A stretch of 64,000 bases of DNA from Clostridiales bacterium. GTDB lineage: Bacteria > Bacillota > Clostridia > Lachnospirales > Lachnospiraceae. A model generated the notes under the pieces. That model saw only the letters and a program-made list of their open reading frames with translations. It was not told where the DNA came from and ran no database searches. Position 1 is the first letter of the stretch. Every line of letters begins with the position of its first letter. The position numbers and the translations under genes were made by a program. Below, piece by piece: positions 55,395-64,000 of the stretch. The DNA lies in NCBI GenBank assembly GCA_021204045.1, contig JAJQAA010000048.1:1-64000 (forward strand), written 5' to 3'.

Positions 55395-56541
55395 ATGGAG
55401 AGAGTGGTTTTACATTCGGATATGAATAACTGTTATGCGAGTATTGAGCTTTTGCACCATCCGGAACTGCGTGGAAGACCGCTGGTGGTCGGAGGAGATC
55501 CGGAGGCGCGGCATGGCATCGTTTTGGCAAAGGACCAGTTTGCAAAGAAAGCAGGCGTGAAGACCGGCATGGCGCTGTGGCAGGCCAAACAGATTTGTCC
55601 GGAAGTTGTCTTCGTGCCGCCGCGTATGGGTCTGTATCTTCGGTTTTCACGGCTGGTGCGGGAGATCTACGCCGATTATACGGATATGCAGGAGCCGTTT
55701 GGGTTGGATGAGTGCTGGCTGGACGTTTCGCAGAGCGGAAGTTATAAGGGCGACGGTATGACGATCGCGAAAGAGATCCGCAACCGGATTAAGTTTGAGC
55801 TGGGTATCACGGTTAGTATCGGCGTTTCGTGGAATAAGATTTTTGCGAAGCTGGGGAGCGACTATAAGAAGCCAGATGCCATCACAGAGATCAGCAGGGA
55901 GAATTACCGGCAGATCGTCTGGCCGCTGCAGGTGGAGGATCTTCTGTATGTGGGCCGTGCGACACAGAAAAAGCTGAACCTCTACGGTATCCATATGATT
56001 GGGGAACTGGCGCGGACCGATCCTGAGCTGCTTCACCGTTGGTTTGGTAAGATGGGATATGTGCTTTCTGTGTTTGCAAATGGAGAAGATCAGACGCCGG
56101 TCTCCATGGAAGATTACCATGCGCCGATTAAGAGTATCGGGAACAGCACGACCACGCCGCGCGATCTGACGACAGATATGGATGTGAAGATCATTGTTTA
56201 TGCTCTGGCGGAGAGTGTGTCGGCAAGGCTGTGTGAAAACAATTTTAAATGTCAGGTGGCGGAGACCGATCAGGAGTGTCGGCGTCCGTGCCTGCGATCT
56301 GGTGCAGGCAGACTGCCCGGTTCAGCTGGATTTGTTCATGAATGAAGAAAAGAGGGAACGTCTTCATCGGATGGATATGACGGTGGATGTGATCCGCAGG
56401 CGCTTTGGATATACGAGTATCCAGCGGGGATTGATGTATCAGGACCGGTTGCTTTCCAGTTTGAATGCGAAGGAAGATCATACGGTCCATCCTCGCGGAT
56501 ATTTCGTGGATGGTAATAAAACGGGCGCATATGCTGGATAG
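55395..56541 (+). pseudogene. Y-family DNA polymerase (DinB/UmuC-like), disrupted by an out-of-frame internal deletion
   Basis: Frame 1: HSDMNNCYASIELLHHPELRGRPLVVGGD...GLDECWLDVS...SARLCENNFKCQV; continues in another frame as RRPIRSVGVRACDLVQADCPVQLDLFMNEEKRERLHRMDMTVDVIRRRFGYTSIQRG. Confidence 0.82.
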
Positions 56542-58327: not shown

Positions 58328-58453
58328 ATGACACCAATTCGTGTATTAATGGTCTGCCACGGCAATATCCCTAAAAGGCTTAAAGATGCAAGGAAAATCA
58401 AGGGTTCCGGGCGGCTGGAGGGCGCTTACCACACCACAACTACACCAATTTAA
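58328..58453 (+). pseudogene. Stub of low-molecular-weight protein tyrosine phosphatase (P-loop cut)
   Basis: AGGAGGT RBS, then MTPIRVLMVCHGNI|PKRLKDARKIKGSGRLEGAYHTTTTPI*; LMW-PTP N-terminus normally continues CHGNICRSP. Confidence 0.6.
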
Positions 58454-58629
58454 TTTGGGCTAGAGCCTCGATATGACGAAAATAAAAAAGTCTCCGTTGG
58501 AAATCGATCTGCCAGCGGAGGCTTTCACTATATCATGAACTTCGTCCATGATCGACATTCACTGCTCGTCAGAAACATGCGAGCATGTTCCGTCCTCGCT
58601 TGCGCTCATTATATTCAAGGGTTACAAGG

Positions 58630-59964
58630 TTAGCGTTGCTCTAAAGCCAGACCAATCAGCCGATCGGTCTGGTCAGCCATGAACAGCGGAATATTCAGCA
58701 CATCATCATCCAGTTTCAGATTATCCAGAGAGAAACGAATGCGGAGTTTGACCTTATCCGGGAACAGCTCCTTGAATTTCTTCAGGCTCTTGCTGGCCGT
58801 GTTGGCTTCGGATTTAACCTCCACAGGGAAAATATCATTTTCCCGCTGGATGAGGAAATCTACTTCATAAGGAGGATTTGCTTGTGTCCAGTACCTGGGA
58901 ACGACTTCAAACTGTGTGATCAAAGTCTGAAGGACAAAATTTTCCGTTAATGCACCCTTAAATTCTGTAAACAGGCGGTTGCCCTCGCCAAAGGCAGTCG
59001 GTGCCAGCTGCGCCAGACGGCGGAGCAGCCCCACATCTACCAGATAAATCTTAAAGGCAGAGAGATCGTCGTGTGCGGACACAGGAAGGCCGGGCGCAGC
59101 GCTGCGGTAAATCTTGTGTACCAGACGGGCGTCTACCAGCCATTGCAGGGCATCCTCATATTCACGGGCTCTGGCTCCTTCCTTGATAACTTTATAGATG
59201 AACTTTTTGTTCTCTTTTGCCAGCTGGGACGGTATGGATTTCCAGACCAGCGAAATCTTCGGAAATTCATTGACATTGGGGTGCTTCGCAAAATCACGTT
59301 CATAGGCGCCAAGAATTCCAGACAGGGCTTCCTGCATGGCGGAAACATCCCGTGCCTCTGTCCACATCTTTACCGATTCCGGCATGCCGCCGGTCACATA
59401 GTACATTTTCAGTTTTTCATATAGTGGATTAAAAAAAGCATCGGGTATCGGTTCAATCGTTTTTACCGTTTCCAGATATTTCGCCAGGTTTTCATCGCCG
59501 TTTGCCAACAGGAATTCTGTAAAGGTCATCGGATCAATCTGCATGAAGTTGACCTTGCCCACGGGGAAGGAGGAAGGTTTTGCCAGAGCAATGCCCAGCA
59601 GAGAACCGGCGCAGGCAATGTGATACTGCGGCGCGTTTTCGCAGAAATACTTCATGGAGTTGATAACCTTGGGGCAGTCCTGTACCTCGTCAAAAATAAT
59701 AAGAGTTTTTTCCGGCACAATCCTCTGGCCGCTGGCCAGCATCAGATTTTGCAGGATTCGGTCTACGTCCTTGGTCGTTTCAAAAAACTGTTTGTATTCT
59801 TCGTTCTCGTCGAAGTTAAAATATGCGGTGTTTTCATAATAACGGCTGCCGAACTCTTTCAGAATCCAGGTCTTGCCCACCTGTCTGACACCTTTTAAGA
59901 TCAAGGGCTTGCGATAGGGAGAACTCTTCCAGGCCAGCAGTTTGTTTATAATAAATCGCTCCAT
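58630..59964 (-). CDS. AAA ATPase with DUF4143
   Basis: PLILKGVRQVGKTWILKEFGSRYYENTAYFNFDEN; LIIFDEVQDCPKVINSMKYF; VDFLIQRENDIFPVEVKSE (PD-(D/E)xK-like C-term). Confidence 0.9.
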   Translation of the reverse strand: MERFIINKLLAWKSSPYRKPLILKGVRQVGKTWILKEFGSRYYENTAYFNFDENEEYKQFFETTKDVDRILQNLMLASGQRIVPEKTLIIFDEVQDCPKVINSMKYFCENAPQYHIACAGSLLGIALAKPSSFPVGKVNFMQIDPMTFTEFLLANGDENLAKYLETVKTIEPIPDAFFNPLYEKLKMYYVTGGMPESVKMWTEARDVSAMQEALSGILGAYERDFAKHPNVNEFPKISLVWKSIPSQLAKENKKFIYKVIKEGARAREYEDALQWLVDARLVHKIYRSAAPGLPVSAHDDLSAFKIYLVDVGLLRRLAQLAPTAFGEGNRLFTEFKGALTENFVLQTLITQFEVVPRYWTQANPPYEVDFLIQRENDIFPVEVKSEANTASKSLKKFKELFPDKVKLRIRFSLDNLKLDDDVLNIPLFMADQTDRLIGLALEQR

Positions 59965-59975
59965 ATATACGCTCC

Positions 59976-60020
59976 ATCACATTTTTATTTGGGTTTTGGT
60001 GTTCTGTAATCACATTTTTA
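59976..60020. repeat. 45-bp repeat copy A upstream of DUF4143 gene
   Basis: atcacatttttatttgggttttggtgttctgtaatcacattttta. Confidence 0.85.
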
Positions 60021-60053
60021 TTATACGCGGCGACTTGGAAAAATACAACAGAA

Positions 60054-60098
60054 ATCACATGATTATTTGGATTTTGGTGGAATGCAATCACATTTTTA
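60054..60098. repeat. 45-bp repeat copy B upstream of DUF4143 gene
   Basis: atcacatgattatttggattttggtggaatgcaatcacattttta. Confidence 0.85.
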
Positions 60099-60383
60099 TA
60101 AAAAAACGAAGTGCTAATGATAACGGGAAGGGATTGCTATGTCATTAGAAAGAGGGTTATGGTAGAGCGGTTTGGTTATTGCAGGAACAACTATTTGAAT
60201 GATTAAAAACAGTCGTAAAATCAATTGTAAAAATTTGCGATTGATTTTACGGTTACAAAGCAGCAACAATAGGATTATTATTTACAACTTCTACATTGAT
60301 TAAAACATGAAATAGGTTATAATACAAAGAAAAGTTGAGAAAGAGAAATTTTAACACATATAATTCAGGGGAGGAATGCTGTT

Positions 60384-60997: not shown

Positions 60998-61375
60998 TTA
61001 ATGATTGCCATATTCTTCCACCACTGCTTTGTTGATTTTGATACAGCTTCCTGTCAGGAGCCGAATCGCTTCCCGCAGTTCATCTGCTATTCCGTCCGTT
61101 ATGGTTCCGCCCTGATTTAAAAATCGGGCAATCTGATTCATATTGTTTCCCAGTTTGTTGATGTCTCTCAGTTCGTCAACGATAGCGCTGTCATTGTGAA
61201 TGATCGGCGCTTGGTAATTGATCTTTTTCCCTGCGATCAATCTCCGGCAGTATTCTGATATAGAGAGATTGGCACTTGCAGTATCGCGGGCAAGCGTTTC
61301 ATAAAGGTCTTCCGTCACGCGGAAACCTATGAATTTTTCTCTCACAGGTGGAAATTGTTTCTTTGGTCTTGCCAT
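60998..61375 (-). CDS. MobC-family mobilization (relaxosome) protein
   Basis: MARPKKQFPPVREKFIGFRVTEDLYETLARDTASANLSISEYCRRLIAGKKINYQ...LRDINKLGNNMNQIARFLNQGG. Confidence 0.88.
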   Translation of the reverse strand: MARPKKQFPPVREKFIGFRVTEDLYETLARDTASANLSISEYCRRLIAGKKINYQAPIIHNDSAIVDELRDINKLGNNMNQIARFLNQGGTITDGIADELREAIRLLTGSCIKINKAVVEEYGNH

Positions 61376-61390
61376 AAAATTTGTACCTCC

Positions 61391-61498
61391 TTTGATAAGC
61401 TCCGGCTTTATCAAAACTGTGACTGCCAGCGGCAGGAACCAATAAGAGAACGCTTGCTGCGAGGTTGCCGCGAGGGTTTGGGGAACCGCAATCCCCAA
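61391..61498 (-). other. oriT-like leader upstream of mobC
   Basis: Inverted repeats TTGGGGA-accgcaa-TCCCCAA (61478-61498) and TTTGATAA-n9-TTATCAAA (61391-61415) in the mobC 5' region. Confidence 0.5.
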
Positions 61499-61761
61499 CA
61501 AGTTGCCTCGGTAACATAACCATGAAAATGAGTTAATGTTAAAAGAGGCGATACTTGCTCTCGATTTGTATGAAAAAGTGTAAGAACGATATATAATCTA
61601 CAACGCACAGTCGCTTCAATTTCATGGCAACAAATAGAATATCCAAGAAATCGAATAAATTTCCAAATAAATATGATTGATGGTTGAATTGCTGACCCTA
61701 GCCCTGTTATAATTATATAAAATGGTGTCTGTAAATATCTATAGCGCGAGGTGTACGCATC

Positions 61762-61971
61762 ATGAAGATAAGTTATAAAAAACTGTGGATTATGTTGATT
61801 GAACGGGATATATCGAAAGCAAAGTTGAGAGAAGAAACAAAAATAGCCGCAGGAACAATGAGTAAGATCAATAAAGGAGAAGAAGTGGCGTTGTCGGTAC
61901 TGCTGCGCATTTGCGATTACTTGGACTGCGATATAGGTGATATCTGTCAGGCGGTACGTGAAGAGAAATAG
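61762..61971 (+). CDS. Small XRE-type HTH regulator (YozG-like)
   Basis: MKISYKKLWIMLIERDISKAKLREETKIAAGTMSKINKGEEVALSVLLRICDYLDCDIGDICQ. Confidence 0.88.
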   Translation: MKISYKKLWIMLIERDISKAKLREETKIAAGTMSKINKGEEVALSVLLRICDYLDCDIGDICQAVREEK

Positions 61972-61998
61972 GATAAAGCAGTGGAAAGGTGAAAAACA

Positions 61999-64000
61999 AT
62001 GCAATCGAATTTTGAATTTCTTAATGAATGTTTTCCTGTGCTGGGAAATTTTGGAGAGCTTGCAGAAAAATACTGTTATAGTGATTCCAATTCATGCCTG
62101 ATGAAACTTGGTATGATTGGAGAAACAATTGTTAATCTGATGTTCACCTATGACAGGATACCTCTGCCCTATGATAATACCGCCGTAACAAGGATTAATA
62201 CACTTCAAAGAGAGGGGTTGCTTACAAGTGATCTGGCGACAATTCTGCATGGCTTGCGAAAGATTCGTAATAAGGCTGTACATGAAAATTATTCTTCTGT
62301 AGCAGAGGGCAAGGCTTTTCTTCAAATGGCTCATAGTTTGTGTGAATGGTTCATGCAGACATATGGTGATTGGGATTACCAGCATCATGAATTTGTTATG
62401 CCAGAAGAATTGCCTGAAGCACAGCCATCGGATAAAGAACAGGAAAAAGCTAAGGAAGAAAAACTTACAGAAGAAGCTCAGACAGCCGCCGCAGCTGCTC
62501 CTGCTGTTTCGTATTCAGAACGTAAGAAGCAAGCGGGAAAAGCAGCAACGCAAAGGCCAAAAACGGAAGCAGAGACCCGTTTCCTTATCGATGAGCAGCT
62601 ACGAATGGTCGGTTGGGAGGCAGATACGGAAAACATACGCTACTCAAAGGGAACGCGCCCCGCGAAAGGACGCAATTTAGCGATCGCTGAATATCCGACA
62701 GATTCTACCGTTGCAACAAAAGGGTATGTCGACTATGCACTTTTTATTGGCCTCCGGCTTGTGGCGACGGTTGAAGCTAAAAGATACCATACGGATATTC
62801 CATCTGTTATCGATTATCAGTGCAAAGATTATTCCAGATGCATCCGGGATGAGGATGCCAAGTATCAGGTCGGCACATGGGGTGAATACAAAGTGCCATT
62901 TACCTTTGCGACAAATGGAAGACCATATTTGGAGCAATATCGTCTGAAATCAGGGATATGGTTTCTCGATTTAAGAAAACCGGATAATTCCCCTTGCGCA
63001 CTGCGTGGATGGATGAGTCCGGACGGTATCGAAGAACTGCTGGTGACCGATACAGAAAGTAAAAACACAGACCTCTCTGCTATGCCGTATGACATCTTAA
63101 CAGACAAGGACGGCTTAAATCTGCGCCCTTACCAGTTGAATGCCATAAAAGCTGCGGAAAAAGCCATTATAGACGGCCAGAGAACTGTTCTTCTGGCAAT
63201 GGCAACCGGTACGGGCAAGACCAGAACAATTCTCGGTATGATTTACCGCTTTTTGAAAACCGGCCGTTTCCGCAGGGTGCTTTTCCTTGTAGACAGAAAT
63301 GCCCTCGGTGACCAGGCTTTGGACGTGTTTAAAGAAGTAAAAATGGAAGACCTTTTGACGCTGGATGACATTTATACCATCAAGGGGCTAGAGGACAAAT
63401 CCATCGATAAGGAGACGCGAATTCATGTATCAACTGTTCAAGGCATGATTAAGCGTATCCTCTACAACGATGGAGAAACAATGCCTGCGGTATCAGACTA
63501 TGATCTGGTTATCGTTGATGAGGCGCACAGGGGATACATCCTCGACAAGGAAATGAGTGATGATGAAATCCTCTACCGTGACCAGCGCGATTATCAAAGC
63601 AAGTACCGTAGTGTAATCGAATACTTCAATGCGGTGAAAGTCGCTCTTACCGCAACCCCAGCATTACAGACGACTGATATATTCGGACAACCGGTGTTCA
63701 AATACACCTACCGCGAGGCCGTCATCGAAGGCTATCTGGTGGATCACGATGCTCCGCACTCGCTGAAAACCAAACTCAGTACGGAAGGTATTCATTATCG
63801 TTCTGGGGACACTGTAACCATTTACGATCCGGTTACGGGAGAAATCACAAACAGTGAGCTTTTGGATGATGAACTTGATTTTGATGTGGAAAATTTCAAC
63901 CGTCAGGTGATAACCGAGCCATTCAACCGAGCTGTTCTTGAGGAGATTGCCCGCAATATTGACCCTGAGAGTCCAAAAGAAACCGGAAAAGCCCTTATTT
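61999..64000 (+). CDS. Type I restriction endonuclease R subunit (HsdR), 5' part; runs off window
   Basis: Read directly (open frame, no stop before window end): MQSNFEFLNECFPVLGNFGELAEKYCYSD..., YVDYALFIGLRLVATVEAKR nuclease motif, VLLAMATGTGKTRTILGMIYRF Walker A, LVIVDEAHRG. Confidence 0.88.
   Translation, partial: MQSNFEFLNECFPVLGNFGELAEKYCYSDSNSCLMKLGMIGETIVNLMFTYDRIPLPYDNTAVTRINTLQREGLLTSDLATILHGLRKIRNKAVHENYSSVAEGKAFLQMAHSLCEWFMQTYGDWDYQHHEFVMPEELPEAQPSDKEQEKAKEEKLTEEAQTAAAAAPAVSYSERKKQAGKAATQRPKTEAETRFLIDEQLRMVGWEADTENIRYSKGTRPAKGRNLAIAEYPTDSTVATKGYVDYALFIGLRLVATVEAKRYHTDIPSVIDYQCKDYSRCIRDEDAKYQVGTWGEYKVPFTFATNGRPYLEQYRLKSGIWFLDLRKPDNSPCALRGWMSPDGIEELLVTDTESKNTDLSAMPYDILTDKDGLNLRPYQLNAIKAAEKAIIDGQRTVLLAMATGTGKTRTILGMIYRFLKTGRFRRVLFLVDRNALGDQALDVFKEVKMEDLLTLDDIYTIKGLEDKSIDKETRIHVSTVQGMIKRILYNDGETMPAVSDYDLVIVDEAHRGYILDKEMSDDEILYRDQRDYQSKYRSVIEYFNAVKVALTATPALQTTDIFGQPVFKYTYREAVIEGYLVDHDAPHSLKTKLSTEGIHYRSGDTVTIYDPVTGEITNSELLDDELDFDVENFNRQVITEPFNRAVLEEIARNIDPESPKETGKALI

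Follow-up and report, generated by a model that had tools for sequence, protein, structure and literature searches.

Results

A DUF4143 ATPase gene with four half-sites around its promoter

The window, by which we mean the whole 64,000-nucleotide stretch of DNA analyzed here, carries on its minus strand a gene for a 444-aa ATPase (58630..59964, with the ATG at 59964; start codons are predicted throughout). Pfam assigns AAA_14 and DUF4143 domains to this protein (E 9.3e-38 and 2.6e-28, both above cut-off), and the PADLOC PDC-S01 profile matches it over its full length (E 7.6e-184). The AlphaFold model (pLDDT 89.7, pTM 0.89) is organized into an AAA+ region (~1-200), an apparent winged helix (~231-308) and a PD-(D/E)XK region (~335-426). 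The order of modeled secondary structure after the AAA+ core (helices 231-248, 257-260 and 266-278; strands 282-288 and 299-308) appears to fit a winged helix, an assignment for which distant fold matches were also used. Residues G25, G30, K31, D92 and E93, together with E341, E367, D369, E382 and K384, are invariant in 37 aligned rows, and the Walker A/B and PD-(D/E)XK residues are intact in the window ATPase. The best solved fold matches are the archaeal AAA+ ATPases 2qen and 2fna, followed by ORC/Cdc6 proteins, including 2qby on origin DNA. A PDB sequence search returned at its top only a weak match to 2fna, and a fold search of viral proteins returned generic AAA+ ATPases only.

Upstream of the gene lies a pair of direct repeats, 59976-60021 and 60054-60099, each 46 nt long, 85% identical and 78 nt apart start to start (shuffle test p=0.005, the lowest value that 200 shuffles allow). 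The sequence-only reading of this DNA had described two 45-bp repeats here, with ATCACAT half-sites 33 nt apart inside each unit and a minus-strand TATAAT between the copies, next to the gene-proximal one; these features hold up, at a repeat length of 46 nt. The proximal copy (59976-60021) ends 11 bp from the ATG. That reading had overlooked the -35 hexamer, a GGAG that abuts the last half-site, and the half-sites themselves as the conserved elements. The minus-strand promoter is a good one of the sigma-70 type, TTGTAT-N17-TATAAT, with its -35 at 60043..60048 (the most frequent -35 hexamer among the orthologues described below) and its -10 at 60020..60025 (plus-strand ATTATA). Around it stand four half-sites, AATAAAAATGTGAT and one variant, arranged as two pairs, each with 33-bp spacing. 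Read along the minus strand, the most distal half-site 1 (ATAAAAATGTGAT, 60087..60099) is followed after 33 bp by half-site 2 (ATAATCATGTGAT, 60054..60066), which sits just upstream of TTGTAT; 17 bp beyond that hexamer comes TATAAT. Half-site 3 (AATAAAAATGTGAT, 60009..60022) overlaps the end of the -10 and the expected transcription start, and 33 bp further on half-site 4 (AATAAAAATGTGAT, 59976..59989; 33-bp pair p=0.005), in the promoter-proximal unit, abuts the GGAG Shine-Dalgarno sequence (59972..59975), 7 nt before the ATG.

Neither repeat unit occurs elsewhere in the 2.75-Mb source genome when its 26-nt core is sought with up to three mismatches. A regulon site of the CRP/FNR type was rejected on this basis, the 26-nt pattern being confined to the two window copies.

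Promoter, half-sites and reading frame travel together

We fetched 80 relatives of the window gene at 83-95% identity, 78 of them with a usable upstream region. Their titles name mostly Lachnospiraceae or related Clostridia, but also Treponema, Synergistaceae, Thermoguttaceae and Succinivibrionaceae; many of these records are MAGs, and individual organism labels may be wrong. With few exceptions, half-sites surround the same promoter in the 78 orthologues. Two orthologues (L012 and L018) have lost the promoter and the distal half-sites, with a breakpoint that falls within the first proximal half-site or at its edge.

In 79 promoters, 68 of them anchored on a -10, half-sites start at +6 relative to TATAAT (59 of the 68 anchored), +39/+38, -39 and -72/-71, the positions of half-sites 3, 4, 2 and 1 of the window. 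Neighboring half-sites are spaced by 33 (64 cases), 32 (31) or, across the promoter, 45 (15), and 59 of the 68 have a 17-bp spacer between -35 and -10. The operator-like reading of the repeats is strongly favored, with the functional unit being the half-site at 33-bp spacing rather than the 45-bp repeat. The repeat interior, TTTGGrTTTTGGTG, which had been counted as part of the conserved element, varies among orthologues; it is the four half-sites that are conserved.

Similarity between orthologue loci starts ~20-200 bp upstream of the gene and, in nearly all close pairs, stops at the stop codon. The upstream limit differs from pair to pair, and longer upstream flanks are common to one trio only (L071/L072/L075). 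Because similarity is limited to promoter and ORF, we conclude that promoter, array and ORF travel together and that no other gene is shared. Specifically, no separate small repressor gene is linked to the ATPase across these loci within the shared segment, which runs from ~200 bp upstream to the stop codon, and autoregulation of the RptR or toxin-antitoxin type was rejected for want of such a gene.

A unit of operator plus ORF that spreads between phyla and ends at the stop codon could also be a single-gene mobile element, the array serving as a recombination or mobility site at its end, or as a substrate of the nuclease, and not as an operator. The intact nuclease motif and the breakpoints of L012 and L018 would be in keeping with such roles. 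However, the half-sites keep fixed positions relative to the promoter, similarity begins at different points upstream in different pairs, the 3' ends of the orthologues hold no partner array and no empty insertion site was found in 299 genomes of the family, so that we regard this explanation as distinctly unlikely. As to self-exclusion, no genome carries two copies at 79% identity or above, against a background of orthologues in only ~16 of 250 genomes.

Promoter repeats recur across the DUF4143 family

The source genome holds 21 DUF4143 genes in its 2.75 Mb, and several of these paralogues have their own, differing promoter repeats, with a period of 33 (L091, L095, L099) or 32 (L086, L092). 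In the sample from this order, every second genome contains no DUF4143 gene, and the single sampled genome of the same genus is without an orthologue of the window gene.

For a wider comparison, genes were drawn from the order and the phylum of the source genome and from six genomes reached through the loci, and were clustered at 60% identity. The 200 bp upstream of each was scored against dinucleotide shuffles (200 shuffles, p floor 0.005), with p<=0.01 taken as significant. Significant promoter direct repeats were found in 33 of 89 AAA_14/DUF4143 clusters compared with 12 of 209 control ORFs taken from the same loci (Fisher 5.7e-11), where the clusters are not fully independent; the sampling as a whole covered a few bacterial lineages plus viral contigs and plasmids. 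A repeat score of at least 15 was reached by 32 family clusters and 5 controls, and among low-GC controls the proportion with significant repeats was 5/85. Within family genes the signal lies upstream (35/86) more than downstream (12/85), and the coding regions gave none (0/86). Inverted repeats show a weaker contrast than direct ones (24/89 clusters versus 18/209 controls). More than half of the 89 clusters have no significant direct repeat in this test, chiefly outside the window's clade, though some of them carry inverted repeats. Promoter repeats are the rule, across several phyla, for many AAA_14/DUF4143 genes.

Spacing follows the protein clade and sequence is private

A tree of 86 representatives resolves three main groups, each with its own spacing. 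In the clade of the window (A, 27 rows) the pooled spacing is 33 (z 24.8), with 66, 32 and 99; in the second (B, 21 rows) it is 23 (z 14.9), with 46, 45, 67 and 90, giving a 22-23/45-46 class; in the third (C, 33 rows) it is 39 (z 10.4), with weaker peaks at 73-74 and 86, giving a class of 39-40 and 72-87. Controls have no comparable peak (best z 4.2). When each representative is labeled by its best spacing (cut-off p<=0.05, tightened to p<=0.01 for the 'far' class), the window being labeled by its 33-bp half-site spacing, the labels change 6 times on the tree; in 2000 shuffles they changed 18 times on average and never fewer than 13.

The 33-bp geometry recurs in independent samples of viral contigs and plasmids. 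A spacing of 33 is the best in 14 of 20 non-redundant IMG/VR relatives, most at p<=0.015, and spacings of 32, 33 or 66 occur in all six plasmid relatives, five of them at p=0.005; these come from Fusobacteriota, Bacteroidota (three), Pseudomonadota and Actinomycetota, four further phyla. Among the examples, L254 repeats the 33-bp unit CACATTTTCCGATGGAAAAACGTGGCTGTCTCG as an array, and L218 has one 33-bp unit present twice and identical. The clade-A repeats overlap the best promoter-like site in 12 of 20 cases and otherwise lie elsewhere, mostly upstream. In the second clade, L152 carries an array of at least five copies with a 22-bp period (AAAAGATCACTGAAGTTTGAGT) downstream of its DUF4143 gene, no more than 200 bp past the stop codon; this is perhaps the promoter of another member.

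These positions also bear on whether the repeats might act in RNA, with the protein or a 5'-leader hairpin blocking translation at the Shine-Dalgarno sequence. Half-sites 3 and 4 do fall within the expected leader or at its start, the last of them against GGAG, and some orthologues (L035, L037, L044, L045, L060) have three leader copies. Half-sites 1 and 2, however, precede the promoter, and many relatives have their entire array upstream of or over the -35, so that it is not transcribed from that promoter; we consider an action in RNA highly improbable.

While geometry follows the clade, the sequence of the repeats is common to close relatives only. The operator of one gene scores 11.2 in the promoter of another when the two proteins are at least 80% identical, versus 6.5 in shuffles. 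At 60-80% identity the scores are 9.0 versus 6.8 (nine pairs only), and below 60% they are near chance: 7.2 versus 6.9 at 45-60%, 7.4 versus 6.9 at 30-45%, and 6.8 versus 6.6 below that. The ATCACAT...TTTTGGTG pattern, which the sequence-only reading had proposed to look for upstream of other DUF4143 ATPases, is private to one orthologue group, and a universal motif was rejected since paralogues carry other sequences, with the window clade keeping the spacing. A shared A-tract plus TG core in clade A, seen by eye, is not enriched over shuffles (11 observed versus 8 expected).

Evidence of this kind can be set against control by the host. The repeats might be bound by a host transcription factor, for instance of the CRP/FNR type with its TGTGA-N6-TCACA site, or by a single dedicated regulator, and full palindromes of this form do occur in some orthologues (L063, L076 and L078). 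Either is hard to reconcile with a motif found at one promoter only in the genome, with same-genome paralogues that carry unrelated sequences, with a layout retained in other phyla and with orthologue loci that have no neighbor gene in common. We judge both versions very unlikely.

Discussion

We consider it likely that each ATPase represses itself by binding an iteron-like array of its own, the sequence being private and the geometry set by subfamily. No gene other than the ATPase is always found with the array, and array sequence changes with the protein while array geometry changes with the clade; binding by the ATPase itself is the simplest account of both. The sequence-only reading had held that the repeats control the DUF4143 ATPase and had raised autoregulation; an operator role and autoregulation are now strongly favored by promoter phasing, co-transfer and the family-wide rule. 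More generally, each protein of this family probably recognizes its own gene and switches it off.

We infer that the ATPase binds directly, that it represses and does not activate, that it uses the winged helix and that entry lifts the repression. The ATPase would bind its own half-sites, apparently through the winged-helix region, and the bound half-sites, 33 bp or about three turns apart, would lie on roughly one face of the DNA. Protein bound in this way would cover the -35, the -10 and the transcription start, so that its own promoter is repressed and the predicted ATP-driven nuclease is kept low in the window. A burst of ATPase might then follow entry into a new host, or occur when the protein is engaged elsewhere. 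The overlap of half-sites with the transcription start, together with their placement on either side of the -35 and -10, suggests repression; it is also possible that some arrays activate, since several in clade A lie upstream of the -35 and not over it.

Periods of 33 and 22.5 bp are near 11 bp per turn, so neighboring units would share almost one face of the helix, each turned slightly against the last, and in two clades this slight turn per unit may be equal (33 = 3 x 11 bp, 22.5 = 2 x 11.25 bp). A filament of ATPase on the array is a speculation. The fold matches bring ORC/Cdc6 (2qby), SSO1545 (2fna) and PABY2304 (2qen) to mind; like these, the window ATPase has an AAA+ region followed by what appears to be a DNA-binding-type domain, at low TM-scores of about 0.3-0.5. 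ORC/Cdc6 binds replication origins and is without a PD-(D/E)XK domain. It is conceivable, if unlikely, that an ORC-like AAA+ assembly of the ATPase is nucleated on the array, in which case a single element would serve as operator, as self-recognition mark and as exclusion group. If so, a single-gene, transferable ATPase-nuclease would recognize its own copy and shut out newcomers of the same specificity.

Self-binding and self-repression would have a close precedent. Iteron-bound plasmid replication initiators autoregulate their rep genes, and the ATPase arrays share with them private tandem direct repeats, spaced by helical turns, over the protein's own promoter. Whereas regularly spaced private promoter repeats are present here, a plasmid Rep fold is absent from the Pfam matches and the listed fold matches of the window ATPase. 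Unlike iteron-Rep systems, these arrays go with an AAA+ plus nuclease fold and are found on chromosomes as well as on plasmids and viral contigs; they are not known to act as origins. Autoregulation through repeated operators is a known kind of control, and the private DUF4143 arrays would be a variant of it.

A second comparison is with RptR, a 79-aa repressor of defence islands that uses one conserved site (PMC12255303). In an RptR-controlled defence promoter, several direct repeats overlap the -10 and two are needed for full repression (PMC12255303). The window likewise has a defence-linked promoter with direct repeats overlapping the -10, but no separate regulator is linked to the ATPase, and each ATPase has its own sites. 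The link to defence comes from the PDC-S01 candidate defence ATPase-nucleases, the protein family to which the window ATPase belongs. In PMC12988326, PDC-S01 is ranked fourth by frequency among prokaryotic defences, PDCs are described as mostly unvalidated and the anti-phage role of PDC-S01 has candidate status only; we found there no mention of promoter repeats or regulation of PDC-S01. Nor did a search of the open-licence literature find published promoter repeats for DUF4143, COG1373, PF13635/PF13173, AAA_14 or PDC-S01.

The arrays predict a DNA sequence and a spacing for each of many individual ATPases, which provides a direct assay, through binding, footprinting and derepression, for an uncharacterized family and a route to predicting specificity from sequence. 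Private arrays may also account for the coexistence, in a single genome, of 21 members that share no control.

Other features of the window

Several further features surround the gene. Between its stop codon and the next gene, the intergenic segment 58525-58614 matches more than 10 genomes of the family at about 71-83% and is some kind of conserved repeated element, and 58330-58490 likewise recurs in family genomes at about 70%. At 55395-56541 lies a UmuC/ImpB-like polymerase frame of 316 aa with a shortened C-terminal domain, which appears to go on in another frame (56194-56541); this is either a frameshifted gene or an assembly error. On the other side of the ATPase gene, a MobC/NikA-like mobilization gene and a type I restriction HsdR-like gene adjoin the array (60998-63999); this region probably represents cargo carried by a mobile element. 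Closer to the array, a 38-nt palindrome at 60214-60251 (arms CGTAAAATCAATTGTAAA / TTTGCGATTGATTTTACG) matches more than 10 other family genomes, often on both strands, and could represent either a palindromic repeat of the dispersed kind or a terminator that recurs.
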